58,001 bases of DNA from Candidatus Omnitrophota bacterium (GTDB lineage: Bacteria > Omnitrophota > Gorgyraeia > S143-82): assembly GCA_015494465.1 (NCBI GenBank), contig WGBD01000009.1, positions 1 to 58,001 of the forward strand, in the 5' to 3' direction. The translations under genes and the position numbers were made by a program. The first letter of the stretch is position 1. Each line of letters begins with the position of its first letter. The notes under the pieces were generated by a model that had not been told where the DNA came from, ran no database searches, and worked only from the letters and a program-made list of their open reading frames with translations. Of this stretch, positions 8,964 to 46,816 are shown piece after piece.

Positions 8964-9644
8964 TCATTTCACCAGCGCCTCATTGATCTTGGCCAACAGA
9001 AAATCAAATCCGTTCCTTACATAATAATCACGCAAATCCTTTTCCAAAAGAGAACCCAACGAAACCTTGTAATCCCTCTTTTTGAAAGACCTTGCAATCC
9101 TATCTAACTTTTGCAATACATCTTTATCGTCGGGAAGAGACAAACCTTGTCGCAACAAAAATTCTATGTCAAAAAAATCCCGTATCTCCTTTCTATCCAC
9201 CGCAGCAGCGATCTTATTCTCTAAAGTCTGCTTCAATGTATGCACCTTGAGCGCAACCTGCCTTGTCGAATACGGGGAATACGCTATCCTCTGCTCAAAA
9301 TCCCACGCCTTAGTCTCTTTCCGTATCTCTATCTTCAATCTATTTGGATAATTAGGACTCCGTACCTCTATAAGGAGTGAATAATGCTTATTTTTGCTAT
9401 CCGTAATCTCAAAATCCCGAGATAGCCCCATTTTCATCTTCCTAAAGTAATCTCTAACATCCATAGGCTCTAAGGACCAGAAATCAAGGTCGATGGAATA
9501 CCTTTTAAGCCCCCAACAAACCCTTAGCATCGTTCCGCCACCAAAGATTAATGGGCCAAGAAGTCTCAAACTATTTAATCTATCCAGAACCTCCATCTCA
9601 AACATCTCATGCTTGCGAAGATTGTACATATCTCTCAACTTCAC
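8964..9644 (-). CDS. AbiEii-like nucleotidyltransferase toxin
   Basis: A 226-aa protein of the AbiEii/MenT nucleotidyltransferase family. The signature is present near the N-terminus: FGGGTMLRVCWGLKRYSIDL, followed by DFWS, giving the GG-T-L-R-S-DLDF motif. A later conserved helix contains ALKVHTLKQTLENKIAAAVDRKE and RDFFDIEFLL. Toxins of this family stop growth, in the studied mycobacterial members by modifying tRNA. It overlaps the upstream AbiEi-like gene by 38 nt, the usual antitoxin-toxin order. Base composition is AT-richer than the core genes, which indicates transfer. Confidence 0.82.
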   Translation of the reverse strand: MKLRDMYNLRKHEMFEMEVLDRLNSLRLLGPLIFGGGTMLRVCWGLKRYSIDLDFWSLEPMDVRDYFRKMKMGLSRDFEITDSKNKHYSLLIEVRSPNYPNRLKIEIRKETKAWDFEQRIAYSPYSTRQVALKVHTLKQTLENKIAAAVDRKEIRDFFDIEFLLRQGLSLPDDKDVLQKLDRIARSFKKRDYKVSLGSLLEKDLRDYYVRNGFDFLLAKINEALVK

Positions 9645-10203
9645 CCCTTACCTTTTTGGGATACCTGCGACTGAAGCCCCTTAATTTTTTAATGTCAAAT
9701 TTATCAAAATCAATAGAAGAGATGTCGAACCTGTATCTGCCCAGTAATGCCATATAGAGACTGTCCAAAAAGGCCTTCTCCGGCTCTGCTATAAAAAAAT
9801 CACCTTTTCTGACAAACCCAAAATACAATTCACTCTTTATCTTGGTATAAATAAAAACGAAACCATCTATAGAGACCTCTTTTGTCCGCTTTTGGCTCAC
9901 GGACTCTATAAAATCACGCAATACCTGCGTCGTAATTCCGTAGTACTCAAGAGCAGACATGAAAGACACATAAGAAGGAACCTGTATAATATTGGCAATA
10001 GCAAACCGCTCCTCCTGAGAAAGGCCCTGCCACACAGACCGCAGAATATAGAGATTCCTCTTTATCCGCAACAGGATTCCATACTTAACAAAACGATGCG
10101 CCTCAACCCTTGCAGAGGCAAGACTAATCCCTAACACCTTGGCTATATCCTCATAACCAAAATAAAGTTTACCAATCTTGTTTAACTTGTCATAATTAAC
10201 CAT
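9607..10203 (-). CDS. AbiEi-like antitoxin / transcriptional regulator
   Basis: About 198 aa. The N-terminal winged-helix region (FGYEDIAKVLGISLASAR, then HRFVKYGILLRIKRNLYIL) is the DNA-binding part, followed by the AbiEi C-terminal antitoxin domain (VSFMSALEYYGI, FFIAEPEKAFLDSLYMALL). AbiEi proteins repress their own promoter and neutralise AbiEii. The ATG at 10203 (MVNYDKLNKIG) is chosen; a TTG at 10215 is an alternative, and neither has a strong Shine-Dalgarno. A promoter and a 16-bp inverted repeat lie directly upstream. Confidence 0.8.
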   Translation of the reverse strand: MVNYDKLNKIGKLYFGYEDIAKVLGISLASARVEAHRFVKYGILLRIKRNLYILRSVWQGLSQEERFAIANIIQVPSYVSFMSALEYYGITTQVLRDFIESVSQKRTKEVSIDGFVFIYTKIKSELYFGFVRKGDFFIAEPEKAFLDSLYMALLGRYRFDISSIDFDKFDIKKLRGFSRRYPKKVRGEVERYVQSSQA

Positions 10204-10225
10204 GGCTATTGCCAAGCATATTTAA

Positions 10226-13308: not shown

Positions 13309-14607
13309 TCAGGTTTTCACCCCTAAGTCGGTGGGGGCGCGGCCGAGGGATTGGAGCAGGGATATGGCCTCGTCTATCTGGGTCTCCAGTTTCTCATCGC
13401 GCCACGCACGGTTGGGGTATATGGCGTAGGACCTGCGCTGGTGTATGGGGGTGATGTTCAGCATTATGGAATTCGCCCCGGCCATCAGCCCGCGTTCCCG
13501 GGCCTTGGAATCCAAGGTCTCGAATGCGGTGGTGACCAGTATCCTGCCTTGGCGGTAGTCTGCCATGCGCATCACTGCCAGGGTCTTCAACATCAACTCT
13601 GGATCAGGGGGTCTGGCCTCTGCAAGTGGGGTGTCTTGATGGGGTATAAACGGTCCGAACGAATACATCTCCGCGGACAACTCCCGGGCGAGGAGGATGT
13701 CGTTGACGATGTCCTCCAAGGTCTGTCCGGGCAGGCCCACCAGGGCCCCGGTGAAGACGAGGAAGCCTATCTCCCGGGCGTGGCGGATGTGCTCCAGCCG
13801 ACTGGACAGTTCCTTTCCGGGGTGGAGTTCCCGGTACAGGGCGGGATTGGAGGTCTCAAAGCGCATCAACAGGCCCCTTGCCCCTGCCGCAAAGAGGGCC
13901 TCTAATCCCTCCAATCCCACCTCTCCGAAACTCACGCAGAGAAAGACGCTGCGCTCCTCCAATATCGCCCTTACCAGAGAGACATAATAATCCAAGGGCA
14001 GGCCTTCTCCGGACTGGAGCACCAGGGCCTTGAAGCCATAACGGTCTATTGCCGAGAGCGCCAAGTCCTTTACCTCTTCGACGCTCATCTGATAGCGAGG
14101 CAGTCTTCGGTTGTGCACGGAGATCCCGCAGTACTTGCAGGCGCAGGTGCACCGGTTGGAGACCTCTATTATGCCGTGGACGCAGCAGGAGTTACCGGTG
14201 TACTTGTGTCTGAGGAAGTTCGCGGAGCGGTAGAGGTATTCCAGATCCTGCGGATCTTCCAGGTGGATGAGGTACAGGAGGTCGTCCCTATCCAGGTCCT
14301 TGCCGTAAAATGCCTTGTCTAATATCCTCAAGAGGCGCTGGTTCTGGGTGTGGGCCTCAGGGGCGCGGGACAAACTAAGGTCCAGCTCCTGAAGGCGGAA
14401 GAAGCTCTCCTTCCACAGGTCCAGAACGGACTCCGCGTAATCCGGAGGGAGTGTCTCTATGACGTACCCGCCCTGGGCGTATACGTAATCTCCTATGCGG
14501 ACCTCGTCGAGTTCGTTGATCGCTAGTTTCTTTTCTCCGAAGTAATCTATGAGGACCCGGTTCTCTCCTACGAAGGCCTCAACCTTACCGGGTATGGCAT
14601 AACACAT
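13309..14607 (-). CDS. HypC domain fused to HydE-like radical SAM enzyme
   Basis: A 432-aa fusion. Residues 1 to about 75 are a HypC/HupF-type hydrogenase chaperone: it starts MCYAIPGKV with the essential Cys2, followed by VRIGDYVYAQGGYVIETL. Canonical HypC has His in the VHxGFA position; here it is Gln45. After a linker, residues from about 90 match HydE: radical SAM motif C153-x3-C157-x2-C160 (CTCACKYC), VLQSGEG, GALVGLPGQTLEDIV and FGPFIPHQDTPLAE. HydE works on the organometallic precursor in [FeFe]-hydrogenase assembly, whereas HypC carries the Fe(CN)2CO unit for NiFe enzymes. It is the last gene of a NiFe hydrogenase operon, 11 nt after hypA. Both domain calls are firm; the combined function is unknown. 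Confidence 0.88.
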   Translation of the reverse strand: MCYAIPGKVEAFVGENRVLIDYFGEKKLAINELDEVRIGDYVYAQGGYVIETLPPDYAESVLDLWKESFFRLQELDLSLSRAPEAHTQNQRLLRILDKAFYGKDLDRDDLLYLIHLEDPQDLEYLYRSANFLRHKYTGNSCCVHGIIEVSNRCTCACKYCGISVHNRRLPRYQMSVEEVKDLALSAIDRYGFKALVLQSGEGLPLDYYVSLVRAILEERSVFLCVSFGEVGLEGLEALFAAGARGLLMRFETSNPALYRELHPGKELSSRLEHIRHAREIGFLVFTGALVGLPGQTLEDIVNDILLARELSAEMYSFGPFIPHQDTPLAEARPPDPELMLKTLAVMRMADYRQGRILVTTAFETLDSKARERGLMAGANSIMLNITPIHQRRSYAIYPNRAWRDEKLETQIDEAISLLQSLGRAPTDLGVKT

Positions 14608-14618
14608 GGACCTTCTCC

Positions 14619-14864
14619 TTACTCCTCGTATTCAAAGGAGTCCAATATCAAGGTCTGACCTTGCGCGGGCTCTATCTCCACCCCGCAACCTTCAAAGAGG
14701 TCCTTCTCGTCGCAGTTCTGAAGATAAAACCTGACCACCTCGGGATCTATCTCGGAAAACTCCCCCATCTTTATCCGCACCCGGGTAATCCTCCTTGCCC
14801 CCAGCTCCCTTGCCCGCTTCACCAAGTCCTCAACCAGCGCCTTAACGAACTTGATCTCGTGCAT
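14619..14864 (-). CDS. HypA-like nickel protein lacking the zinc domain
   Basis: An 81-aa protein that begins MHEIKFVKALVEDLV, with the conserved His2-Glu3 nickel site, and continues with ITRVRIKMGEFSEIDPE as in HypA. Normal HypA is about 113 aa and carries two CxxC pairs binding structural zinc. Here the chain passes from GCGVEIEPAQ straight to QTLILDSFEYEE, which aligns with the very C-terminus of HypA, so the zinc-finger segment (about 35-40 residues) is cleanly absent and both ends are kept. It overlaps the protease gene by 23 nt. HypA delivers nickel to the hydrogenase large subunit, usually with HypB, which is not encoded here. Confidence 0.85.
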   Translation of the reverse strand: MHEIKFVKALVEDLVKRARELGARRITRVRIKMGEFSEIDPEVVRFYLQNCDEKDLFEGCGVEIEPAQGQTLILDSFEYEE

Positions 14865-15348
14865 CTCTTTCCCTCCTTGTTCTTGCTATGCTCTCGGCAA
14901 TGCGCCTGCCCGCAGAGACCACCTCGGATGATATCTCTTCACCGAAGCCCATCTTGGCAACTTGTACCCCTAAAAAGCGGACCTCCATGTCCGGACGATC
15001 CAACTTTACCATAGATATTACCACTGGCAGGGGGATGCTGTGGGTGCTAAGGGTGAACAGGGACAACTCCTCCTCGGATACAAACTGCACCTCTCCTGCC
15101 TCTCCACCGAAGTCGGCTGCGTCTATCACGAGCAGTAAAGAGGCGTCGCTGTTTACTATTGGATCAATGAAGTTCTCGGGGGTGGTCCCTGCGGAGAATA
15201 CTGAGAGCCCCTCTTCCTCTTTCAGCAGGTCGGCGACGTAACAACCTATACCGTCGTCCATCCTATAGGGATTGCCTATTCCCAGGACGGCGACGGATCT
15301 GTGGCGGTTGAGCAGGTCAACGAGATCTCTTTCCCACGAACTTGACAT
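14842..15348 (-). CDS. Hydrogenase maturation protease (HycI/HyaD family)
   Basis: A 168-aa endopeptidase that trims the C-terminus of the large subunit after nickel insertion. It shows the family motif GIGNPYRMDDGIG, the second acidic site in VIDAADFGG, and the STHSIPL motif. The gene overlaps the large-subunit gene by 32 nt, and the large subunit ends with a removable tail after its last motif, so this protease very likely acts on that product. Confidence 0.92.
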   Translation of the reverse strand: MSSSWERDLVDLLNRHRSVAVLGIGNPYRMDDGIGCYVADLLKEEEGLSVFSAGTTPENFIDPIVNSDASLLLVIDAADFGGEAGEVQFVSEEELSLFTLSTHSIPLPVVISMVKLDRPDMEVRFLGVQVAKMGFGEEISSEVVSAGRRIAESIARTRRERDARDQVR

Positions 15349-16651
15349 CTAAGAAGTGGGTTGAGCAGGATATGCAGGGATCGTAGGCGCGAACGAGCAT
15401 CTCCAACAGGAGGGTTATCTCCTCCTCGCTGTTGTCCAGTATCTCGGGAATGAGTTTCTTCATGTCGTGTTCGATGTTGTTGAGGTTCTGGTTGGTGGGG
15501 ATTATGCAGTTTGCCCCTACGATCTTACCCTGATCGTCTATCTCGTACTCGTGGAAAAGGACACCTCTGGGGGCCTCTACCGCACCTACCCCCCGGCCTG
15601 CCTTTACCGGGATGGTGCCCCTCTCGTTCAAACCGACGGAGACCTCCTCACTGTAGTCTATACCGTTCTCGAGAAAGTTCTTTACTATCGCTATCGAATC
15701 CTCAACGCAGTGCACGCACTCTATCAATTGGGCAACAGTATTCAAGTAGGGATTGTGATTCGGCACCTTGAAGCCCAAGGCCTCGGCAGCCTCCTTTGCC
15801 CGGGGATGGAGTTTGTCGAAGTTGAGGTTCAGGCGGGCCAGGGCCCCCACCATGTAACTTTCCCGGGAAAGGCGGGTGTGCTTGGCAGTGGAGTGGGGGA
15901 CGATGAACTCGTTGGTTATCTTTCGGTATTGGTGCTTGTGCTTTCTCACCCCGTCGGTGGAGCCGATGTCTCCGTCCAGCAACGGATACTCCTCGTCGTC
16001 CCTCACCAAGGCAACGTATTCGGTCTCTCTCTCGAACTCAGGGAACTTTATCCCCTTGAACAATTCAACGGTGGCGTCTACATCCAGTTTGAGGTCTTCC
16101 AGCATCCGGAGCATCGACTCCAGCTCGTGTCTTCTCGGGAGTTTCGTAAAGCCCCCTATCACGGTGGTGATGGGGTGAATGTGCCGTCCGGCTATCAGCT
16201 CGCAGACGTCGTTGACGCACTTCTTCATCTTCAGGGCCCTGCGGACTACCTTCTCGTGAGTCTCCAAGAGGGGAACGAAGCTCTTTACCCGCATCAGATC
16301 CGGCAGGACCAGGATGTAGATGTGGAGTATGTGGCTGTCGAGCATCTCCTGATGTAGCAAGAGGCGCCGGAGTTCCCTCGTCTGGTGAGACGGGGTTATC
16401 CCCAAGGCGTCCTCTGCTGCCTGTATGGAGACCAGACTGTGGGCACAGGAGCATATACCACAGATGCGAGAGGTGATGTGCTGGGCCTCAAATATGGAAC
16501 GCCCCCGCAACATCGCCTCAAAGAACCTCGGCGATTCTATTATCTCCAGTTTGCACTCCTTTATGGTGCCTTCTTCCACGTCCACGACGATGTTGCCGTG
16601 GCCTTCCACTCGGGTGAGGTACTCGACGTTTACCTTTACGCTCTTGGGCAT
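15317..16651 (-). CDS. hydA: NiFe hydrogenase large subunit, group 3 (HydA/sulfhydrogenase alpha-like)
   Basis: A 444-aa catalytic subunit. The four nickel-iron ligands are present: RICGIC near residue 63 and DPCISCSTH near the C-terminus. A 12-residue tail (FLDVKFVGKRSR) follows the final His and would be cleaved by the neighbouring protease. The other conserved group 3 features include the start region TRVEGHGNIVVDV and IGGFTKLPRRHEL. With three further subunits it should form an NAD(P)H-linked cytoplasmic enzyme that interconverts H2 and protons, or reduces sulfur, as in Pyrococcus. The redox partner preference cannot be read from sequence. Confidence 0.94.
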   Translation of the reverse strand: MPKSVKVNVEYLTRVEGHGNIVVDVEEGTIKECKLEIIESPRFFEAMLRGRSIFEAQHITSRICGICSCAHSLVSIQAAEDALGITPSHQTRELRRLLLHQEMLDSHILHIYILVLPDLMRVKSFVPLLETHEKVVRRALKMKKCVNDVCELIAGRHIHPITTVIGGFTKLPRRHELESMLRMLEDLKLDVDATVELFKGIKFPEFERETEYVALVRDDEEYPLLDGDIGSTDGVRKHKHQYRKITNEFIVPHSTAKHTRLSRESYMVGALARLNLNFDKLHPRAKEAAEALGFKVPNHNPYLNTVAQLIECVHCVEDSIAIVKNFLENGIDYSEEVSVGLNERGTIPVKAGRGVGAVEAPRGVLFHEYEIDDQGKIVGANCIIPTNQNLNNIEHDMKKLIPEILDNSEEEITLLLEMLVRAYDPCISCSTHFLDVKFVGKRSR

Positions 16652-16652
16652 A

Positions 16653-17405
16653 TCACTCCTTCTCCTGCGGTTGGATCTCCTTGGCCCGATTGTACATGTT
16701 AAACTTGTTTATTATCCACTCCAAAGGAATCCCGTATCTCTTTAACACCTCCATCTGGGCGTTCTTGTTGGGGTTGGATACCATCCCCCGACAGCCATAG
16801 CATATGTTCCCGTTGTTCGTGCACCAGCTGTTGCACCCCGCCCGGGTTATGGGGCCAAGACAGGTTATACCCTTATCGTACATGCACTCGTTCTCGTTGA
16901 ATTTGCATTCCACACACACTGCATAATCCGGGACCTTGTAGGGCAACCCCTGCAGGACGCACTTCAAGACCCTCACGAATTCGGGGATGTACACCGGACA
17001 GCCCGGCACATAATAGTCCACCTTCACCACCTGATCCACTGCCATGGTGGGTACGGTGTCGAACCAATCCGCCTTGTCCTGATACACGTACCGTTTCACG
17101 TCCTCCAGATCAAAGTCGTTCTTCATCCCGTTTACTCCACCGGTGCAGGCACAGGCCCCGTAGGCGATGAGGATCTTGGCCTTCTCCCGGATTTTCTTTA
17201 TCCTCTCTATGTCGTGGTGGGTGGTGATGCTTCCTTCTACTACTGCAACCTCGTAATCGCCACCCCTCTCGGACATCACCTCGCGGAACTCCACCAGTTC
17301 TATCCGATCCAGTAGGTCTACCAAAAGGTCCCCCATGTTGGCCACCTGCAATTGGCAGCCTTCGCAACAGGCGAAGTCGAAGAATGCAACCTTTACCTTT
17401 TTCAT
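16653..17405 (-). CDS. hydD: NiFe hydrogenase small subunit, group 3 (HydD/sulfhydrogenase delta-like)
   Basis: A 250-aa electron-transfer subunit. The proximal cluster ligands are visible (CCEGCQLQVANMGD, IAYGACACTGGVNG, YVPGCPVYIPEFV), and a Cys-rich C-terminal region (CVECKFNENECMYDKGITC, then NSWCTNNGNICYGCRG) supplies two further Fe-S clusters. It has no Tat signal peptide, which agrees with a cytoplasmic group 3 enzyme. It starts at an ATGA overlap with the upstream flavoprotein gene and ends 1 nt before hydA. Confidence 0.94.
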   Translation of the reverse strand: MKKVKVAFFDFACCEGCQLQVANMGDLLVDLLDRIELVEFREVMSERGGDYEVAVVEGSITTHHDIERIKKIREKAKILIAYGACACTGGVNGMKNDFDLEDVKRYVYQDKADWFDTVPTMAVDQVVKVDYYVPGCPVYIPEFVRVLKCVLQGLPYKVPDYAVCVECKFNENECMYDKGITCLGPITRAGCNSWCTNNGNICYGCRGMVSNPNKNAQMEVLKRYGIPLEWIINKFNMYNRAKEIQPQEKE

Positions 17406-18238
17406 AGCGCCTCTAGGTTATCCTTTATCTCGTCGTAAGAAAAGACCGGTCCGTCCTGACAGCAGTAGTAATTGCCTATCTGGCAGTGTCCGCACTTGCC
17501 GATCCCGCACTTCATGTGCCTTTCCAACGAGACGATGATCTGCTTCTCGGGGATCCCCTTCTTGAGTAACTCTTTTATTACGAAGCGGTACATAATCGGC
17601 GGTCCCACCACCACCGCAAAGGTGCGCGTGGGATCCAGATCCACCCCGGGTATCAACGAGGTAATCAAGCCTACATTTCCTTTCCAGTCGGGATCGGCCC
17701 GGTCTACAGTACAGGAGAAGTCCACGTCTATCCTCCGGGCCCAACTCTCCACCTCGTCTTTGAAGAGGATGTCCTTCGGACTACGACATCCCAAGAGGAT
17801 GTGCACCCGCCCGAAGTCCCTACGGTTGTCTATCACGAAGTCCACTAAGGACCTCAGGGGGACCAGACCCAAACCACCGGCCACAAACAAGAGGTCATTA
17901 CCCTCAAGGATCCTCACTGGAAAGCCCCTGCCAAACGGACCGCGTATGCCGACGGTGTCTCCCACTTCCAGACGGTGGATCGCACTGGTGACCTTACCCA
18001 CCTTCCTCACCACCAGTTCAAAGTATCCCTTCTTGGTGGGAGAAGAGCATATGGATATCGGGGCCTCGCCCACCCCGAATATGGAGACCATCACGAACTG
18101 GCCGGGCTCGTGGTCGAGGTCCGGCTCGTCCCTCAACATCAACTTAAAGTACTTTTCGTGCTCGGTCATCTGTCGGACCTCGCACACCTTTGCCTCTTTC
18201 ACCAGATACGGGGAATCTACCAGCTGCAACCGCTTCAT
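17402..18238 (-). CDS. hydG: Hydrogenase diaphorase subunit (HydG/sulfhydrogenase gamma-like)
   Basis: A 278-aa ferredoxin-NADP reductase-type protein: an FAD-binding section (EPGQFVMVSIFGVGEAPISI), an NAD(P)-binding section (LLFVAGGLGLVPLRSLVDF) and a C-terminal [2Fe-2S] motif (HMKCGIGKCGHCQIG, then YYCCQDGPVF), as in dihydroorotate dehydrogenase PyrK and sulfhydrogenase gamma. It passes electrons between NAD(P)H and the Fe-S chain. The ATG at 18238 overlaps the upstream stop (ATGA); a longer frame upstream lies inside hydB. The symbol follows the Pyrococcus hydBGDA naming, not the [FeFe] maturase HydG. Confidence 0.92.
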   Translation of the reverse strand: MKRLQLVDSPYLVKEAKVCEVRQMTEHEKYFKLMLRDEPDLDHEPGQFVMVSIFGVGEAPISICSSPTKKGYFELVVRKVGKVTSAIHRLEVGDTVGIRGPFGRGFPVRILEGNDLLFVAGGLGLVPLRSLVDFVIDNRRDFGRVHILLGCRSPKDILFKDEVESWARRIDVDFSCTVDRADPDWKGNVGLITSLIPGVDLDPTRTFAVVVGPPIMYRFVIKELLKKGIPEKQIIVSLERHMKCGIGKCGHCQIGNYYCCQDGPVFSYDEIKDNLEAL

Positions 18239-19281
18239 ACCCCAGCCCTTTCGGCTATCAAGGCCTTTATCGTCTCCTTTATGTGGATCTGGGCCATGCA
18301 GGCCCGGGAACACCTCCCGCAACCGGTACAGAAGAACCTGCTGTACTTGGCAAGGGGATACTTGAACTTGCGCAGGTACCTGTGCCTCTGCCGGCCACTG
18401 CGCTCCTCGCGAAAGCTCTCTCCTCCCGCCACCTTGGCGAAGTCCTCGTTCTGACAGGAATCCCAGATGCGGAACCTCTCACCAGTGCGCAGGTCCAGGT
18501 TTATCTCGTCTATCACGTCGAAACAATAACAGGTGGGACAGACCGTGGTGCAGTTCCCACAGGAGAGACACCGCTCTCCCAGCTCCTCCCAGACCCGGGC
18601 ATCCTCGCAATTGGCGAACAGATCCATCAGCTCCGGATGGGAAAGGTCTATGCCTGTGTCAAATGCGGACCTTTTCTTTTCCCTGAACTCCTGCAAGCGT
18701 TTCAGGTCCTCTCCTGTGGCCTCAGTGAAGACGCCTATGGAACGGACGATCTCCTCCCCAACCTCTGTGTTCACATGAATCAGGTGATAATCTCCCAGAT
18801 CGCTAAAGAAAAGGTCGTAACCTCCCTTAGGGAGGTGATTGTCCATCAGGGCACAAAGGGCGTGCTCGTCGCAGTAGTCCCAGCACTCCATGCCGATGAT
18901 TATGAGTTTGTTCTTTCGAATCAGGTAATTCACGTCCCGGGGCCTTTCGGAGAAGACCATGTTTAGGCACTGTATCCCCGCCAGGTCGCAGGTCCTGACG
19001 CCAAAGATGACTACCTTCTCGTACTCCATCACCGCCTTCTGGCGCTGAGCAACCGCGTCGTATTCCAGTATTGTCTCCCTTTGAGGGAAGAAGTACTTTT
19101 TCGGTGGGATTATCGTAGGGATGTACTCCTCTGGGGAGGCGATCTCGTCGGGAGAAGAGATGCGAGCGAAGACGAAGCTTTTTTCTCCCCGCTTCACTGG
19201 AGCGACCACCTGATAACGCGAGGTCAGGGCCCCGACGAACTCCCTACACTCGGTCTTGTTAAGACGATAGTACTGATCCAT
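18235..19281 (-). CDS. hydB: Hydrogenase 4Fe-4S subunit (HydB/sulfhydrogenase beta-like)
   Basis: A 348-aa iron-sulfur protein of the sulfhydrogenase beta/anaerobic sulfite reductase A family. Two C-terminal 4Fe-4S ferredoxin motifs are present: CLSCGNCTTVCPTCYCFD and FFCTGCGRCSRACMAQIHI. Cys residues in VRTCDLAGIQCLNM and MECWDYCDEHALC are also typical. It relays electrons within the four-subunit complex. The ATG at 19281 makes a TGATG overlap with the preceding membrane protein gene; a GTG at 19284 is an alternative. Confidence 0.93.
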   Translation of the reverse strand: MDQYYRLNKTECREFVGALTSRYQVVAPVKRGEKSFVFARISSPDEIASPEEYIPTIIPPKKYFFPQRETILEYDAVAQRQKAVMEYEKVVIFGVRTCDLAGIQCLNMVFSERPRDVNYLIRKNKLIIIGMECWDYCDEHALCALMDNHLPKGGYDLFFSDLGDYHLIHVNTEVGEEIVRSIGVFTEATGEDLKRLQEFREKKRSAFDTGIDLSHPELMDLFANCEDARVWEELGERCLSCGNCTTVCPTCYCFDVIDEINLDLRTGERFRIWDSCQNEDFAKVAGGESFREERSGRQRHRYLRKFKYPLAKYSRFFCTGCGRCSRACMAQIHIKETIKALIAERAGV

Positions 19282-19565
19282 CACTGCTCCAACAAATACC
19301 TTCCTATGCTAGGGCTTCGCTTGGCCAAGGCCAAGAGGCCGGCCCAGAAGCCGATAACTCCAGCGGTGATGAGAAAGCCCAAGAGTATGTCCTTCTGCCA
19401 CTCATCCGAGACGAGGAGCAGCTCCCCGTTGTAGAGGTGGTCTATCACCCCGAATGCGCTTGCCCCGTAGAGCATCAACACCAGCCACCACAACCTTGCG
19501 GTCTTCTTCTTGCGCCACTTGGCGGTGGCTATCACCGAAGCGATCAACGGGACCGTATAGCACAT
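19281..19565 (-). CDS. Small membrane protein, first gene of the hydrogenase operon
   Basis: A 94-aa protein with about three hydrophobic segments: MCYTVPLIASVIATAKW, LWWLVLMLYGASAFGVI and ILLGFLITAGVIGFWAGLLA, separated by a basic loop (KWRKKKTAR) and a short acidic loop. I do not recognise a family. It has a strong ribosome site (AAGGAGGTCGAGG before ATG) and leads directly into hydB with an overlapping stop/start, so it is co-expressed with a hydrogenase otherwise expected to be soluble. A membrane-anchoring or assembly role is conceivable but not shown. Confidence 0.72.
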   Translation of the reverse strand: MCYTVPLIASVIATAKWRKKKTARLWWLVLMLYGASAFGVIDHLYNGELLLVSDEWQKDILLGFLITAGVIGFWAGLLALAKRSPSIGRYLLEQ

Positions 19566-19721: not shown

Positions 19722-20612
19722 CTATATCGCCAGCCCGTACTTTTCTATATTCGCCTGAGCGACCTTGCGGACCTCTTCCAAGACCTCGGGCTCCTTTAGC
19801 AGGTGTCTGAAGCGCCCCTGCAGTTTCAGGTACTCCTCAACGGGCTTTACCTTCACCTTCCTAACGGAGACGACCTTGCCGTTCTCGTACTCCACCAAGG
19901 GATAGAGGCCGGTCTCCACTGCCAGTCGGGCAATCTCCACGGTGAGACTTGGATCGTGTCTCCAACCCAACGGGCAGGGTACGTGTATCTGCAGGAACTT
20001 TGGCCCTTTATACTCTAAGGCCTTCTTCACCTTTCTCTCAATGTCTGCCGGATAGGCGACCGATGCACTGGCTGCGTAGGGTATGTTGTGGGCAACCGCT
20101 ATCTCCAACAACGGCTTCTTGGGCCGGGGATTCCCGTGTGAGCGTTTACCTACCGGTGAGGTGGTAGTATTGGAATCCAATGGGGTCAACCCACTCCTCT
20201 GGACACCAGTGTTCATGTAGGCCTCGTTGTCGTAGCAGACGTAAAGGATGCCGTGTCCTCGCTCCAACATCCCAGAAAGGGCCCCCATGCCGATGTCCGC
20301 GGTGCCTCCGTCACCACCCTGGGCAATGACCTTCACTTCGTCTATCCTGCCGAGGTATCTCAACGCTGCCTCTATACCCGAGGCAACCGCTGCGGCGTTC
20401 TCAAACAAGGAATGGATCCAGGCCACCCTCCAGGCACTCTGCGGGGCCTTAGTGGTAAAGACTTCCAGACAACCCGTGGCGTTGGATATGATCGTCTTCG
20501 GCCCGGCTGCGTTCGCTACTATTCTCGCTGCGATCGCCTGACCACAACCTGCACAGGCGGTGTGTCCCGAAGCCAATAAGTGCCTTTTCGGATCCGCTAC
20601 TACTCCTGCCAT
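19722..20612 (-). CDS. porB: Pyruvate:ferredoxin oxidoreductase beta subunit
   Basis: A 296-aa TPP-binding subunit. Cys residues near the N-terminus (GHTACAGCGQA) bind a 4Fe-4S cluster, and the TPP/Mg motif is GDGGTADIGMGALSG, followed by VCYDNEAYMNTGVQRSG. It is the last gene of porGDAB, 1 nt after porA. PorGDAB oxidises pyruvate to acetyl-CoA and CO2 with reduction of ferredoxin; the related 2-ketoisovalerate enzyme is the main alternative. Confidence 0.92.
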   Translation of the reverse strand: MAGVVADPKRHLLASGHTACAGCGQAIAARIVANAAGPKTIISNATGCLEVFTTKAPQSAWRVAWIHSLFENAAAVASGIEAALRYLGRIDEVKVIAQGGDGGTADIGMGALSGMLERGHGILYVCYDNEAYMNTGVQRSGLTPLDSNTTTSPVGKRSHGNPRPKKPLLEIAVAHNIPYAASASVAYPADIERKVKKALEYKGPKFLQIHVPCPLGWRHDPSLTVEIARLAVETGLYPLVEYENGKVVSVRKVKVKPVEEYLKLQGRFRHLLKEPEVLEEVRKVAQANIEKYGLAI

Positions 20613-20613
20613 A

Positions 20614-21783
20614 TTATGCCTCCAAGAGTTTCTCGTTGAGTCCGATAAACCGGCTCTCTCCTTCGTCCTTCTCCACTTCCTGGAATATTTGCCTTATCTG
20701 AGCAGGGGATATGTCTCTACCTCCCAATCCGACGGTGAAACTGTTCACTTTGGCATCTGCTCCCTTCTTATAAAGCAGGGATGCCACCTCGGAGAACAAC
20801 GGGCTGTCCGCACCCAAGGAAACCGCCTTCTCTACCACGCCTACGTACTTGGCCCCTTTGAGTGCCTCGTATATCTCGTCCTTGGGGAAGGGACGGTAGG
20901 TTATGATCTTTAACACGCCGACCTTCTCACCCTTTTCCCTTAGTTCGTCAACCACATCCTTTATGGTGCCTACCAACGATCCCATGGCCACGAGCACCTT
21001 CTCCGCATCTTCGACGCGATAGGCCTCTACCAAGCCCCCAACCTTACGACCAACCACCTGAGAGTAGGCCTCGGAGGCCTCCTTTATCACCCCCAAGGCG
21101 TCCTCCATCGTCTTGGCTATGGCGTAGCGGGTCTCCATGTACACATCGGGTGCGCCCAAGAGCCCCATGCTCTTGGGGTCGTCCGGATCCAGTTTCACCA
21201 CCGGATCCAGTGGTGGCAGGAACGACTGCACCTGATCCTCTTCGGGCATGTCCACGACCTCAAAGGCGTGGGTAAGGACATAGCCGTCTATCCCGACCAG
21301 GGCCGGCAGGGAGATCCGCTTGTCCTCGGCCACTTTATAGGCGATCACGTGGAGGTCTATGGCCTCCTGTATGTTCTCAGCGTAAAACTGGATCCACCCG
21401 CTGTCCCTTACGGTCATGGAGTCCTGATGGTCGTTCCATATGTTTATCGGGGCGGACACCGCACGGTTGGCACAGGTCAGGACCACTGGCAGGCGCATTC
21501 CCGCTATGTTGAACAGGACCTCCGCCATCAACAGGAGCCCCTGCGAACTGGTCGCGGTGTAGACGCGCACACCGGTTGCGGAGGCACCCAGGACCACTGA
21601 GGCTGCGGAGTGCTCGCTCTCCACATTGATGAACTCCGCATCTAATTCCCCATCCGCAATCAGTTTTGCCAGGCCCTCCACGATGTGGGTCTGGGGGGTA
21701 ATGGGGTAGGCAGAAATCACACCTGGTCTGCACTTGGCGATTATCTCAGCGATCGCGTGAGATCCCTCTACGAACTTTTTCAT
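20614..21783 (-). CDS. porA: Pyruvate:ferredoxin oxidoreductase alpha subunit
   Basis: A 389-aa subunit with the pyrimidine-binding domain of the POR family: VISAYPITPQTHIVEGLA, FINVESEHSAASVVLGA, GVRVYTATSSQGLLLMAEVL, and NIWNDHQDSM close to the substrate site. It starts at an ATGA overlap with porD. Together with the beta subunit it forms the catalytic pair. Confidence 0.93.
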   Translation of the reverse strand: MKKFVEGSHAIAEIIAKCRPGVISAYPITPQTHIVEGLAKLIADGELDAEFINVESEHSAASVVLGASATGVRVYTATSSQGLLLMAEVLFNIAGMRLPVVLTCANRAVSAPINIWNDHQDSMTVRDSGWIQFYAENIQEAIDLHVIAYKVAEDKRISLPALVGIDGYVLTHAFEVVDMPEEDQVQSFLPPLDPVVKLDPDDPKSMGLLGAPDVYMETRYAIAKTMEDALGVIKEASEAYSQVVGRKVGGLVEAYRVEDAEKVLVAMGSLVGTIKDVVDELREKGEKVGVLKIITYRPFPKDEIYEALKGAKYVGVVEKAVSLGADSPLFSEVASLLYKKGADAKVNSFTVGLGGRDISPAQIRQIFQEVEKDEGESRFIGLNEKLLEA

Positions 21784-41280: not shown

Positions 41281-42356
41281 GGAAGTTCGTCCTGGTCTTG
41301 TTGTTGATCTTGGCGGTGGCGGGGGTCTTGGTGGTGCGCAGGAAGGTGGAGTTGGCAAAGGCACCCCGGCAGGGCGGGATCAAAGTGGTGCAGGTCGTCC
41401 GGGCCCGTAGCGGGAAGTTAGAGAAAAAAAGGCATTACCTTGCCCGGGTGGAGTCCCGACACAGGATTGGGGTTATGGCCAGAGGCGCCCTAAGGGTGGA
41501 GGAGGTGCCGGTGGATGAGGGCGATAGGATCAAGAAGGGGCAGGTTATTCTCCAACTGGATGCCTCTCAGGCGAAAGCGGCACTGGAAAGGGCCAAGGCA
41601 AACCTCGAGTCCGCTAAGGAAAACCTCGCCTTCTGGGAGAAGGAACTGAAGCGGGCGGAGTACCTGTTCTCCCAAGGGGCCATCCCCGAGGCCGAGAGGG
41701 ACAAGGTGAAGAACAGTTATGCCCAGGCCAAGGCAAGGATGGCCTCCGCGCAGAAGGAGGTGGAGCGCCAGGAGGCGGAGATGCGCTATCTCACGATCCG
41801 CTCGCCGATAACCGGCGTGGTCATCAAGCGGTTGGCGGATCCCGGGGACATGGTGGGGCCTGGGAAACCCATCGTGATATTGGCGGACGATTCTCGCCTA
41901 AGGCTGGTCTTTGAGGCCCCGCAGGAAGACCTCCCGGACCTGAGGGAGGGTGAGGATGTGTCGTTTAGGCTTAAGGATGAGGAGCACAAGGCAAAGGTCT
42001 CGCGGGTCTTCCCGGCGTTGGAACCCTCACGCACCGTTCGGGTGGAGGTGGATCTGGAGGAAGATCCCGGTCTGAGGTTGGGGCAGACGGTGCCCGTGGA
42101 TGTGGTGGTGGAAAAGAAGGACTCCGCCGTGCTCCTGCCCCGCAGTTCCCTGATGCGCACTACAGAGGGTGGATGGCAGGTATTCCTGGTGAAGGAGGGA
42201 GTCGTGCACAGGAGGCCGGTGGAACTGGGGATAGAGGGCGACGGTTGGGTGGAGGTGAAGGGGGTCTCTCCCGGGGAGATGGTGATAAGGGCCCCGTTCC
42301 TCTCCTTGGTGAGGTTGAACGATGGGGATAAGGTAAGGGTGGCGGGTAAGAGATGA
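41277..42356 (+). CDS. RND efflux membrane fusion (periplasmic adaptor) protein
   Basis: A 359-aa HlyD/AcrA-type adaptor. N-terminal anchor (FVLVLLLILAVAGVLVV), the lipoyl halves (ALRVEEVPVDEGDRIKKGQV and YLTIRSPITGVVIKRLADPG) flanking an alpha-helical hairpin rich in Ala/Lys/Glu, then the beta-barrel domain. It links the pump with the outer-membrane channel. The ATG at 41277 overlaps the padR stop (ATGA); a longer upstream frame lies inside padR. Confidence 0.92.
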   Translation: MRKFVLVLLLILAVAGVLVVRRKVELAKAPRQGGIKVVQVVRARSGKLEKKRHYLARVESRHRIGVMARGALRVEEVPVDEGDRIKKGQVILQLDASQAKAALERAKANLESAKENLAFWEKELKRAEYLFSQGAIPEAERDKVKNSYAQAKARMASAQKEVERQEAEMRYLTIRSPITGVVIKRLADPGDMVGPGKPIVILADDSRLRLVFEAPQEDLPDLREGEDVSFRLKDEEHKAKVSRVFPALEPSRTVRVEVDLEEDPGLRLGQTVPVDVVVEKKDSAVLLPRSSLMRTTEGGWQVFLVKEGVVHRRPVELGIEGDGWVEVKGVSPGEMVIRAPFLSLVRLNDGDKVRVAGKR

Positions 42357-45300
42357 ACCTTACGGAGGTATCAGTAAAGAATCCCTATCTGGTCCTGGCG
42401 GCGAGTCTGCTGGTCGCGGTCTTGGGGACGATTTCTTTCTTCCGCACGCCGGTTGATCTCTTTCCCGACACTTCTCCTCCTCAGGTCCTGGTCTTGACCG
42501 TGGAGCCAGGGGCCTCGGCAGACGACGTCGCAGACAAGATAACCGAGGTGCTGGAGAAGGAACTCAACACCCTCCCCGGTCTGAAGCGGATTCGCTCCAT
42601 CTCCCGGGATGAGGTCTCTGCCATAACCGTGGAATTCCGCTACAGTAGGGACATAGACACCGCATTGATTGACGTGGTGAATGCGGTCTCCCGGGTGAAG
42701 GCCCAACTGCCCAAGGACATTCTCCCGATAAGGATATACCGAATAACCGATGCGACCCGGCCCACCCTCACTTTGGCCCTCTCCCCGAAGGCAGACAGCG
42801 GTAAGACCTTGGAGGACATCCGCCTCCTGGCCGAGAACCAGATAAAGGACGAGTTGCTCTCTCTGCCAGAGGTGGGGGATGTGGATGTCTTCGGGGGGTA
42901 CCTGCCGGAGGTGAGGATACGCCTGGATAGGGATAGATTGAGATCCTACGGGATAGGCCTTCCCGAGGTCCTGTCCGCTGTGAGCAAGAGGAATATCACC
43001 GTCCCCGGTGGCTATCTCTATTCCCGGGGCGGGGAGTATCTGGTCAAGACATCTGGAGAAGTGGACGACCTTGAGGGTTTACGAAACCTGCCGATAAAGA
43101 GGCAGGGCGGGGGGTATGTACTGCTCAGAGATGTTGCCAGAGTAGAACTGTCCCATGCAGACCAGCGCAGTCTCTTCCACGGCAACGGCCACAGGGCAAT
43201 AGCCCTGAACGTCCTTCGTCCCGACGACGGGCACACCTTAGAGACGATCCGCGCGGTGAAGAGGTTTCTTCCCAGACTAAGGAAGAAGTATCCCGACATC
43301 CAGTTTGAGATCGTGGACGATCAGGAGGGGATAATCACCATAAACCTAAAAGGGATGCGGTCTTCGCTGTGGCAGGCGGTCATCCTGACGGTCCTGGTGG
43401 TCTTTCTGTTTCTGGCAGACAGGCGGACTGCAGGAGTGATAGCCCTGAGCATACCGATGTCCTTCCTGTTCAGTTTGATGGTCCTGAAGTTCAGCCCCTA
43501 TACGATGAATATGGTGACCCTCTCGGGATTGATCATCGCGGTGGGTATGGTGGTGGACGCCTCTATAGTGGTCTTGGAGAACATCTACCGCCACTATCAC
43601 CTCGCCCAGGGGAGGAAGTCCATATTCGAGGTGGTCTTGGAGGGGACGAAGGAGGTGGCTCTCGCCAACACCGCAGGGGCCTTTACCACCATCGTGGTCC
43701 TTATCCCGGTGATGTTCGTGGGGGGCTATCCCCAGACGGTCCTTCGCCCGCTGAGTATAATGATAGGGTCCACTATATTTGCCTCGCTTATCGTGTCCCT
43801 GACCATAGTCCCGCTCCTGTCTTCTCGCCTGTTGGCCAAACCCACCAAACCTTCCCTGATAGAGGTCTGGACCCGGGCCTTTGGAAAGGTTGTGGATCGC
43901 CTTGCAGATTTTTACGTCTCCTTATTGGAGGTGGCCCTGCGCCATCGCTTCAAGGTGATACCGATCGTGATGGCCAGTTTCGTCCTGACGATAAGGGTGG
44001 TTCTTCCCCTTTTGGTGGGAGAACTTATGCCTCCAATGGATACGGGGATCGTGAAGATAACCCTGGACATGCCCGCCTCTTTCGGGATAGAGAAGGTGGA
44101 GCGGGTGCTCAATCAGGTGGAACGGGTGATTAAGTCCACCCCTGGGTTCATATCCATGTCATCAGTGGTGGGTTCCGAGCCGGGTCAGATCAGTTTCGGT
44201 GGGGGAGGGGCGACGACGCAGACGGTCCACATGACCGTGAACCTAGTCACCCGGGACCGCAGGAAAAAGACGATATGGGAGATAGAGGACGAGTGGAGGG
44301 AGGCCCTCAGGAAGATAGAGGGACTGCGGTCCTTCTCGGTGATGGAGTACGGTGCTACCCCTATCTCAACCACCAAGGCCCCTCTGGATCTGGTCCTATA
44401 CGGCGATGATGTGAATCTGTTGGACAAGATGGCCGACGGGGTGGTGAGGAGGATAGTGGGTATCCCGGGCCTGTTGGACGTCCGGAGGAGTTGGTACAGG
44501 GATAAACCCCAGTTGGAGATAGTTCCCGACGAGAGACTGTGCAAACTTTACGGTGTCTCCACTGAGGATGTGGCCCGTCTGGTCCGGCTGGCGGTGGGAG
44601 GAGGGATCGTATCCTACATGCGACTGAAAGACTTTCTGGATATCCCCATCCGTCTGGATTACGCGGAAGGGGATGTCGGGTCCCCGGATGCCCTGGGGCT
44701 GATATACATCCCCACCCGATATGGTCAGATCCCGTTGAGGGCCTTGGTGAAGACGGTGGAGCGGACCTATATCCCTCCCTTTATCTCCCGTGAGGACATG
44801 AAAAAGACCATCGACATCACCGGTATAAACCGAACCGCGACGATAATTCAGGTGGCCAAGCAGGTGGGAAGAAGGCTCCGTCAGGCCCATCAGGTCGTTC
44901 CTGCAGGCTACGGGATGAAGATGTCGGGCACACCCGCGGACATGAAGGAGGCAAGAGACAGGCTCCGCAAGGCCCTGTTATTGGGCCTGCTCCTGCTGTA
45001 CCTCTTGCTGGTGCCGATGTACCGCTCCCTTACCCACCCGGTGGTTATAATGGTTGCCATCCCCCTCGCAGCGGTGGGGGCGGTGTGGGGTCTGCTTGTG
45101 TTTGACAAGCCGATGTGTATGCCCGCAATAATGGGCATAATCCTGTTGGGCGGGACGATAGTCAACAACTCCATTCTCCTCTTGGACTTCATCCTCCAGG
45201 CCCGGGCCCGGGGCAAGAGCAGGGAAGAGGCGATTATAGATTCGGTGCGCATACGGACCCGCCCTATACTGATGACCGCCTCTTCCACCATAATAGGCCT

Positions 45301-46816
45301 TACCCCCTTGGTCTTCGAGATGGCGGTGGGTCTGGAGAGGTTAAGCCCGATTGGAATCGTGGCAGCGAGCGGACTCCTCTTGGGCACATTCTTGACGATG
45401 ATAGTGGTGCCGGTGGTCTATACCCTCGTAGACGATATAGTCGCCCGGTTCCGTCCGAATCGCAGGGCCTTGGCAGGGGTGATGGTTGCCTTGTTCCTGT
45501 TTGCCTCCTATGGTTTCGCTGGAGAGGATAAGGGCCCGGTGCTGATGTCTTTCCGGGATGTGATAACCCATGCAGAGGAGCACGCTCCGGATGTAAAGAT
45601 CGCTTTTCTGGAGGCGGAGATCGCCCGGACGGAGAGGGATGCGCTCCACGCCAGATTACTGCCCAATTTGGACCTGGAGGGGGGATACATCCACTATCAG
45701 GAGGATCACGGAATCCTGCCGGGAGTAGGCGGCCCTGCCCAGCGGTTCGACGACGAGGTGCTGTCCGCAAGGGCGGTCCTGTCCTGGTTGATAACCGACT
45801 TTGGGGCGACGGGATATCAGTACAGGGCCTTGGACAGCCTTTACCTCTCCAAGAAGGAGTTGGCGCAGTGGAAGAGGGATCTCGTCGTGTTCGCCAGCGC
45901 CTGTCTGTACGCCAGAGCGGTGGCCCTTAGGGAGGAAAAGGTTGCCCTGCGCTATCGCAAGAAGGCCTTGGAGGAGTTGTTAAGGCGGATGGAGGATTTC
46001 CTGTCCCAGGGCAAGATCGCCCGGGTAGACCTGTTGCGGGTCAGGGCCCGGCTGGCGGAGGTGGAATCCGCTATAGCCAAGGTAGAAACCGCCTATCGGT
46101 CCTCTTCGGCCCGGTTGGAGGAGGTCATAGGCTGGCAGGGACGGGAGATAGAGTTGGCGGGGTTGCCGGACCTATCCGGTTGCGGGTTGGAACTGGATGG
46201 GGATCGGGCTATGGAGGTTGCCTTGCAGAACCGAAAGGACCTTATGTCCTTGTACAAAAGCCGGGAGGCGGGAGAGTGGAGGGTCCGGTCCGCAGAGCGC
46301 AGGTATCTTCCCCAGATGTTTCTCGTGGCCGGGGTAGGCGAGTTCTCGGGCAGGGATTCGTCCGCCCGCTTTTCAGGGGGTGATCGCTGGGAGGACGATA
46401 ATTGGATTGGGGTGAAGGTGAATCTCCCGATATTGGACGGGGGAAAGAGGAAGGCCGAGAAGGAGATGGCCCGAATCGCGTATCGCCGGCAGTTGGTCGA
46501 GGTCCAGAAGAGGATCCTGCAGATTTCCCGCCAGATAAAGACCGCCTTGGCGCAGGTAAAGTCTGCCCGCAAGCGGATGGAACTGGCCTCCATTGAGGTG
46601 GAGCAGGCGAGGGAGTCGTTTCGCTTGGAGAGGTTGAAGTACGCCACTGGCAAGGGTGTGATAGACGATGTCCTCTCCGCGGAGGCCCAACTGCGCTCCG
46701 CAGAGGCGGACCTCATCCACGCCCGCCGAGACCTGTTGTGCGCACGGTTGCAACTGTATCTGGCTGAGGGCGTTTTGCTCGAGAGGTTGGCGGGCAAGTG
46801 CAGGGATTTGCCTTGA
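42353..46816 (+). CDS. RND efflux pump fused to TolC-type outer-membrane channel
   Basis: A continuous 1487-aa frame. Residues 1 to about 1035 are an AcrB/HAE-type RND transporter (MNLTEVSVKNPYLVLAASLL; TM4 GMVVDASIVVLENIYRH with one Asp of the proton relay; TM10 GGTIVNNSILLLDFIL). Residues from about 1060 are a TolC/OEP protein with two coiled-coil repeats (SFRDVITHAEEHAPDVKIAF through QAKYATG-type helices near the end). The junction, residues 1044-1060, reads MVALFLFASYGFAGEDKG, which looks like a signal peptide with a possible signal peptidase site after GFA. There is no stop or frameshift. It overlaps the adaptor gene by 4 nt, so one operon supplies the whole tripartite pump. Substrate unknown. 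Confidence 0.9.
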   Translation: MNLTEVSVKNPYLVLAASLLVAVLGTISFFRTPVDLFPDTSPPQVLVLTVEPGASADDVADKITEVLEKELNTLPGLKRIRSISRDEVSAITVEFRYSRDIDTALIDVVNAVSRVKAQLPKDILPIRIYRITDATRPTLTLALSPKADSGKTLEDIRLLAENQIKDELLSLPEVGDVDVFGGYLPEVRIRLDRDRLRSYGIGLPEVLSAVSKRNITVPGGYLYSRGGEYLVKTSGEVDDLEGLRNLPIKRQGGGYVLLRDVARVELSHADQRSLFHGNGHRAIALNVLRPDDGHTLETIRAVKRFLPRLRKKYPDIQFEIVDDQEGIITINLKGMRSSLWQAVILTVLVVFLFLADRRTAGVIALSIPMSFLFSLMVLKFSPYTMNMVTLSGLIIAVGMVVDASIVVLENIYRHYHLAQGRKSIFEVVLEGTKEVALANTAGAFTTIVVLIPVMFVGGYPQTVLRPLSIMIGSTIFASLIVSLTIVPLLSSRLLAKPTKPSLIEVWTRAFGKVVDRLADFYVSLLEVALRHRFKVIPIVMASFVLTIRVVLPLLVGELMPPMDTGIVKITLDMPASFGIEKVERVLNQVERVIKSTPGFISMSSVVGSEPGQISFGGGGATTQTVHMTVNLVTRDRRKKTIWEIEDEWREALRKIEGLRSFSVMEYGATPISTTKAPLDLVLYGDDVNLLDKMADGVVRRIVGIPGLLDVRRSWYRDKPQLEIVPDERLCKLYGVSTEDVARLVRLAVGGGIVSYMRLKDFLDIPIRLDYAEGDVGSPDALGLIYIPTRYGQIPLRALVKTVERTYIPPFISREDMKKTIDITGINRTATIIQVAKQVGRRLRQAHQVVPAGYGMKMSGTPADMKEARDRLRKALLLGLLLLYLLLVPMYRSLTHPVVIMVAIPLAAVGAVWGLLVFDKPMCMPAIMGIILLGGTIVNNSILLLDFILQARARGKSREEAIIDSVRIRTRPILMTASSTIIGLTPLVFEMAVGLERLSPIGIVAASGLLLGTFLTMIVVPVVYTLVDDIVARFRPNRRALAGVMVALFLFASYGFAGEDKGPVLMSFRDVITHAEEHAPDVKIAFLEAEIARTERDALHARLLPNLDLEGGYIHYQEDHGILPGVGGPAQRFDDEVLSARAVLSWLITDFGATGYQYRALDSLYLSKKELAQWKRDLVVFASACLYARAVALREEKVALRYRKKALEELLRRMEDFLSQGKIARVDLLRVRARLAEVESAIAKVETAYRSSSARLEEVIGWQGREIELAGLPDLSGCGLELDGDRAMEVALQNRKDLMSLYKSREAGEWRVRSAERRYLPQMFLVAGVGEFSGRDSSARFSGGDRWEDDNWIGVKVNLPILDGGKRKAEKEMARIAYRRQLVEVQKRILQISRQIKTALAQVKSARKRMELASIEVEQARESFRLERLKYATGKGVIDDVLSAEAQLRSAEADLIHARRDLLCARLQLYLAEGVLLERLAGKCRDLP

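Follow-up and report, generated by a model that had tools for sequence, protein, structure and literature searches.

The assembly of [NiFe] hydrogenases in anaerobes is said to need six Hyp proteins, and the anaerobic source of the CO ligand is regarded as the most pressing open question (PMC12134894). In the known HypC, Cys2 binds the Fe(CN)2CO unit, and further ligands come from Cys41 of HypD and possibly from His51 of HypC (PMC12134894). A HypC-family protein has also been described that carries Fe(CN)2CO on Cys2 and forms a complex with the large subunit (PMC8692609). For the [FeFe] enzymes, HydG converts two tyrosines into a mononuclear Fe(Cys)(CO)2(CN) synthon that is handed directly to HydE. 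HydE adenosylates and reduces this synthon and presumably also turns it into a dimer for HydF (PMC12752695, PMC11736057). HydG makes CO and CN for the [FeFe] enzymes, and 'different machinery' has been assigned to the [NiFe] enzymes (PMC6802093). Here, we describe a gene of an Omnitrophota bacterium in which parts of the two systems are joined. It lies in a stretch of 58,001 nucleotides that was analysed as a whole (the window).

The HypC-HydE gene and its hydrogenase operon

A single uninterrupted reading frame of 432 residues joins HypC to a HydE-type radical-SAM enzyme (Table 1). In the Pfam search, residues 1-65 matched HypC (PF01455) with 39.1 bits over a cut-off of 28.5 bits, residues 147-304 matched the radical-SAM family (PF04055) over the curated cut-off, and a BATS domain was found at residues 320-402. 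The top NCBIfam match was HydE (TIGR03956, E 3e-65) with 220.5 bits, which is under the equivalog cut-off of 254.6 bits; some other fusions exceed this cut-off with 267 and 276 bits. PylB, BioB and HmdB scored far under HydE, and the HypC model TIGR00074 gave a score of 34.1, under its cut-off of 48. When the solved structures were searched with phmmer, HydE of Thermotoga maritima was found with 2e-57 and HypC with 1e-4. The motifs MCYAIPGK, CTCACKYC, QSGEG and GPFIPHQDTPL were all located in the frame. An earlier note on this DNA had read the gene as a fusion of HypC with a HydE-like enzyme in one frame, and the profile matches and motifs bear this out. Its coordinates were exact, with no mention of the minus strand.

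The structure prediction proposed in the same note gave a confident two-domain model. AlphaFold2 returned a mean pLDDT of 94.4 and a pTM of 0.93 for the window fusion, and a pLDDT of 90.3 and a pTM of 0.90 for a fusion with a short linker. From these pTM values the HypC domain is predicted to have a defined place on the barrel. With Foldseek, the model of the window fusion was matched best by T. maritima HydE (TMt 0.90-0.95), and the best match was a HydE structure with a bound Fe(CO)2CN species.

Table 1. Positions in the window of the fusion gene, its domains and motifs, and the other genes of the operon.
Feature	Position	Strand	Evidence or remark
HypC-HydE fusion gene	13309..14607	minus	432 aa, stop codon 13309-13311
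HydE-like radical-SAM domain, about residues 127-432	13312..14229	minus	TIGR03956 E 3e-65; Foldseek
Radical-SAM CxxxCxxC (Cys153, 157, 160)	14128..14151	minus	invariant in fusions and HydE
Cys141-Cys142-Val-His144, fusion-specific motif, barrel strand 1	14176..14187	minus	alignment of 82 fusions
HypC domain, residues 1-78, long terminal helix 55-79	14374..14607	minus	PF01455 over cut-off
Gln45 codon, replaces conserved HypC His51	14473..14475	minus	Gln in 79/79 fusions
Cys2 codon of HypC domain	14602..14604	minus	invariant among fusions
HypA-like gene, 81 aa, without zinc-finger half	14619..14864	minus	PF01155 positions 1-70 of 112
Hydrogenase maturation protease	14842..15348	minus	TIGR00072 over cut-off
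[NiFe] hydrogenase large (alpha) subunit	15317..16651	minus	four Cys ligands, APRG, PT, C-terminal extension
Hydrogenase small (delta) subunit	16653..17405	minus	NF040836/NF040831 best matches, under equivalog cut-offs
FAD/NAD(P)-binding gamma subunit	17402..18322	minus	profile matches
4Fe-4S beta subunit	18235..19284	minus	profile matches

The fusion is the last gene of the operon, as had been stated before, and follows the genes for the beta, gamma, delta (small) and alpha (large) subunits, the protease and HypA. With four subunits and the Ni-Fe ligand cysteines, which sit in RICGICxxxH and DPCISC of the large subunit, the hydrogenase is a group-3b-like [NiFe] enzyme. The sulfhydrogenase subunits scored best, though below the equivalog cut-offs. 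Like the HypA gene of the window, those found at other fusion loci lack the zinc motif (8 of 8: L116, L117, L122, L126, L129, L138, L141, L148), and the HypA-like proteins at fusion loci, including the window, have 77-101 residues. Their sequences suggest a simplified nickel-insertion step. Directly upstream of the hydrogenase operon and on the same strand, subunits of a pyruvate/2-oxoacid:ferredoxin oxidoreductase are encoded (19722-21783, minus). Elsewhere in the window, a frame of 1487 residues (42353-46816, plus) combines an AcrB-type efflux pump with an outer-membrane efflux protein, an unusual fusion of inner and outer membrane components. At 8964-10215 (minus) an AbiEii-like nucleotidyltransferase with an upstream regulator-like reading frame resembles a type IV toxin-antitoxin pair.

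The alignment of the fusions showed that Cys2 of HypC is retained by all of them. His51, which belongs to the motif GDYVxVHxGF and is present in those HypC proteins with a HypD partner that were taken from relatives, is Gln in every one of the 79 fusions compared. In the HydE domain, the residues common to HydE are retained, including CxxxCxxC. Just before the radical-SAM loop stands the motif Cys141-Cys142-Val-His144, with C141 conserved in 99% and both C142 and H144 in 100% of the 82 fusions. At the equivalent positions, stand-alone HydE proteins have V or I, a variable residue and Arg (17 of 17). By this comparison, Cys142 and His144 may replace the two lost ligands, Cys41 of HypD and His51 of HypC.

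The group-3b-like large subunits at the fusion loci keep all four metal-binding cysteines as well as APRG and PT. The Arg and Thr of these two motifs we take to be the residues that contact the two cyanides in the known enzymes. Since both motifs are kept, the product is more likely to be a standard Fe(CN)2CO site.

Maturation genes in the genome and its class

The window comes from a genome (G000) of 1.41 Mb on 12 contigs that is rated 96.7% complete. When this genome was searched, its sole HypC was found to be the HypC domain of the fusion. HypD, HypE and HypF were all missing from the genome, which answers the earlier proposal to look for them beyond the window. For HypE, there were weak partial matches, each with less than one fifth of the cut-off. 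Two HypF candidates with 28 and 22 bits were rejected, as they match only short stretches of the model (positions 3-55 and 664-735) and resemble acylphosphatase- and TsaD-like proteins. The same genome search detected no [FeFe] hydrogenase, no stand-alone HydE and no HydG. The arrangement which the earlier note had named as speaking against its reading, an [FeFe] hydrogenase with HydF or HydG and a separate HypC, was not encountered, as the genome has neither an [FeFe] hydrogenase nor HydG nor a second HypC. With HypD, HypE, HypF, HydG and stand-alone HydE absent, the fusion is the only one of the searched genes for making or assembling the ligands that this genome has, and the hydrogenase operon is intact.

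In the genus-mates G002 and G003, HydG lies on a different contig from the fusion, and the [FeFe] hydrogenase and a stand-alone HydE are on further contigs. Since all three are missing from the genome of the window, a single assembly gap hardly explains their absence. HydG in this genus may have belonged to the [FeFe] hydrogenase. In the genome of the window, either HydG alone was missed or another source of CO and CN serves.

At the level of the class, 59 genomes were compared, 11 of which have the fusion. HypD was found in 23 genomes, none of the 11 with the fusion versus 23 of the 48 others (Fisher p=0.004, an optimistic value that treats related genomes as independent). HydG exceeded the TIGR03955 cut-off in 10 of the 11 fusion genomes, the genome of the window being the exception, and two of the 11 have an [FeFe] hydrogenase. 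Eight genomes of the class combine HydG and the fusion without [FeFe] hydrogenase and without HypD; only one other genome, which is 60% complete, has HydG but no [FeFe] hydrogenase. Among the [FeFe]-negative genomes, HydG occurs in 8 of 9 with the fusion versus 1 of 31 without it (p=1e-6, optimistic for the same reason). Most genomes are metagenome-assembled, and co-occurrence in related and incomplete genomes of this kind overstates independence.

Distribution and evolution of the fusion

With the fusion-specific N-terminal half, 84,980 species genomes were scanned, which yielded 189 relatives, the best 80 of which were kept. These 80 span at least 13 named phyla, among them archaeal ones. 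The hosts are Omnitrophota, Planctomycetota (including the anammox Scalindua), Elusimicrobiota, Margulisiibacteriota, Spirochaetota, Lentisphaerota, Caldifarciminota, Firestonebacteria, Bdellovibrionota, Myxococcota, Chlamydiota, a Falkowbacterium and DPANN archaea. Several loci of the anammox Scalindua/Brocadiaceae (L124, L128, L132, L136, L137, L140, L145) carry the fusion, and HydG adjoins it in all except L137, which ends with the contig. In a few Omnitrophota operons a gene for a ThiF/MoeB-like adenylyltransferase stands between the protease and HydG (L079 7577-8356, plus; L086).

Together with the 11 genomes of the class, 50 wider genomes made up a survey of 61 fusion genomes. In the wider set, HypD was found in one genome, HypF in the same one and an [FeFe] hydrogenase in 8; for all 61 the numbers are one, the same one and 10. 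In the same run, 7 of 8 HypD-bearing genomes of the class gave a HypF match, which shows that the search method works. HypF matches in G086 and G097 covered only the C-terminal half with 125-128 bits and were counted as carbamoyltransferase relatives. The only genome with the fusion and HypD/HypF, G092 (L120/L150), consists of many contigs and also has a fragment of an [FeFe] hydrogenase; it could genuinely harbour both systems or be a mixed bin.

Among the neighbourhoods of the best 80 of the 189 relatives, HydG was the commonest neighbour (48-49 of 80), and in 47 loci it is at most 600 nt away, on either side of the fusion. The HydG neighbours that were tested are full-length and over the cut-off. 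Hydrogenase subunits and the maturation protease (27 of 80 loci) are the next commonest functional neighbours. A [NiFe] large subunit is encoded in 33 of these 80 loci and is of the group-3b-like or the group-4-like type. HydF was found in none of the 80 neighbourhoods, and it sits beside HydE/HydG in three [FeFe] loci examined. Of the 50 wider genomes, 31 have HydG adjoining the fusion and no [FeFe] hydrogenase, and in 18, by a count at the level of the locus, no HydG is encoded at the fusion. The earlier note had expected the fusion to accompany group 3b hydrogenases and to occur without HydG and [FeFe] hydrogenase. Group-3b-like loci were indeed found, but the fusion is not restricted to them, as operons of group-4 membrane hydrogenases also carry it. 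The expectation for the [FeFe] hydrogenase held in 51 of the 61 fusion genomes and failed in 10, whereas HydG turned out to be the commonest neighbour of the fusion.

In the tree of the radical-SAM domains, the 82 fusions fall together in a single clade (SH-aLRT 96) that is sister to 17 stand-alone HydE proteins, and the window fusion groups with those of its genus-mates. Judged from this tree, the fusion arose once. There are two classes of linker length, and the HypC and HydE parts are about equally conserved (58% and 55%). The source sequence is an assembled contig, and a frameshift or assembly join of neighbouring genes, suspected at about codon 80-90, had been named as a possible artefact. 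This explanation is refuted by the 82 distinct homologous fusions with their two linker classes and single clade, and by the similar conservation of both parts. In the tree of HydG, three changes are needed between fusion-linked proteins and those of [FeFe] genomes, at least two of them forced by well supported branches, which indicates that HydG lineages were swapped but the fusion kept HydG as its partner. The C-terminal cluster motif of HydG has two forms, FCTACYR (CxxC) and FCTAGYRC (CTAGYRC; L052, L118, L119 and others), and both occur among the [FeFe]-linked and the fusion-linked HydG proteins.

A proposed pathway and its relation to known systems

We conclude that the HypC-HydE protein is probably the scaffold of an alternative [NiFe] maturation route that does without HypD, HypE and HypF and has HydG as its partner. 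It is supported by the observed fusion and its conservation, the exclusion of HypD and HypF, the linkage to HydG and hydrogenase genes and the altered ligand residues. For the chemistry, we infer the following steps. HydG would cleave tyrosine and build a mononuclear synthon with iron, CO, CN and cysteine. This synthon would enter the barrel of the HydE domain, where SAM radical chemistry would strip or reduce it. Cys2 of the HypC domain, which is rigidly docked, would then take over the mononuclear iron, which would not be dimerised to the di-iron unit for HydF; Cys142 and His144 may here stand in for Cys41 of HypD and His51 of HypC. Finally, the HypC domain would deliver the iron unit to the apo large subunit, and nickel insertion of the HypA type and the protease would complete the enzyme. 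Two observations speak against this pathway. The genome of the window has no detectable HydG, and the HydG product Fe(CO)2(CN) carries two CO and one CN, whereas the [NiFe] sites, Fe(CN)2CO, carry one CO and two CN. To get from the one ratio to the other, HydG would have to turn over once more and ligands would have to be exchanged, or the enzyme may have an unusual ligand set.

The fusion might also replace the HypC-HypD scaffold with CO and CN from elsewhere, either in free form or from an enzyme not yet known, and HydG would then be a mere frequent helper. The intact hydrogenase operon in a genome without HydG fits this explanation, as do the 18 wider genomes in which HydG is not adjacent. 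We regard it as rather unlikely, since HydG is the commonest neighbour in the best 80 loci and accompanies the fusion in all but one of the class members, and since the genomes with HydG but without [FeFe] hydrogenase are almost exactly those with the fusion. A smaller chance is given to a variant of our own proposal, in which the HydG synthon would be used as it is and give a non-canonical Ni-Fe(CO)2(CN) site. The synthon has just this composition (PMC12752695, PMC11736057), and a second cyanide source is missing, with HypF absent from all but one of the 61 fusion genomes and HypE absent from the genome of the window. Against it, the large subunits keep the APRG Arg and the PT Thr, presumably the cyanide contacts.

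That the fusion and HydG still work for an [FeFe] hydrogenase, or for another cofactor like the H-cluster, with an incidental [NiFe] linkage, is highly improbable. [FeFe] maturation is the only setting in which HydE and HydG are known (PMC12752695), and 10 of the 61 fusion genomes do have an [FeFe] hydrogenase. However, the other 51 have none, HydF never stands near the fusion in the 80 neighbourhoods, and in the [FeFe]-bearing genus-mates G002 and G003 a stand-alone HydE accompanies the fusion.

The route with HydG as partner thus remains our preferred reading. The suggestion of the earlier note that the fusion has a part in making, remodelling or loading the iron-diatomic unit is strongly supported by the exclusion of HypD and HypF, the operon linkage and the absence of [FeFe] hydrogenase. 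It had also considered the fusion as an anaerobic route to CO; here, to judge from gene neighbourhoods, CO and CN probably come from the adjoining HydG and not from the fusion itself. Taken further, there would be a second complete [NiFe] pathway in several bacterial phyla and some archaea, in which tyrosine-derived CO and CN pass from HydG over HypC-HydE to the large subunits without HypD, HypE and HypF. We favour this wider claim with somewhat less confidence; it includes an enzymatic origin of CO in anaerobes and possibly a non-canonical set of iron ligands.

In the CC-licensed text of PMC, we found no report of a HypC-HydE fusion or of HydG in [NiFe] maturation, and none on hydrogenase maturation of this kind for Omnitrophota, Margulisbacteria or Scalindua. 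Neither hypC nor hydE nor hydG is mentioned in the genome papers on Margulisbacteria (PMC6349859) and Omnitrophota (PMC10066038). The protein families are known; as far as could be found, it is new that they are combined in this way, serve this client and replace HypD, HypE and HypF, and the claim of a pathway would surprise specialists. If it is true, many anaerobes build their [NiFe] sites with the toolkit of the H-cluster, and tyrosine is the anaerobic CO source in the organisms with the fusion. Hydrogenase surveys with hypD or hydG as markers would then misassign these organisms. For heterologous expression, hydG and one fused scaffold would be a compact cassette.

HypX is comparable in that it offers a different supply of CO from the one sought in anaerobes, but it provides CO only, from formyl-THF and under oxic conditions (PMC12134894), and works alongside HypCDEF without replacing them. 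HmdB, the maturase of [Fe]-hydrogenase, is likewise a HydE-like radical-SAM enzyme in cofactor assembly. The fusion matches it with 61 bits, far below the 220 bits for HydE and the HmdB cut-off of 321, and the cofactor is another one. With HydE, HydG and HydF the fusion shares a HydE-fold domain with the common invariant residues, and a true HydG adjoins in most genomes. In contrast to that system, there is no HydF in the neighbourhood and usually no [FeFe] hydrogenase, HydE is fused to HypC, CCxH replaces the Arg of HydE and the client is a [NiFe] enzyme. The HypC/HypD scaffold system is resembled in the HypC domain with Cys2 and in the large-subunit client with CGxC/DPCxxC and a C-terminal extension, and standard [NiFe] maturation in the protease and HypA-like gene of the operon. 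Unlike HypC/HypD with HypE/HypF, the fusion has none of HypD, HypE and HypF, His51 is Gln, no carbamoyl-phosphate route provides cyanide, and the partner of the scaffold is a radical-SAM barrel fused in cis.
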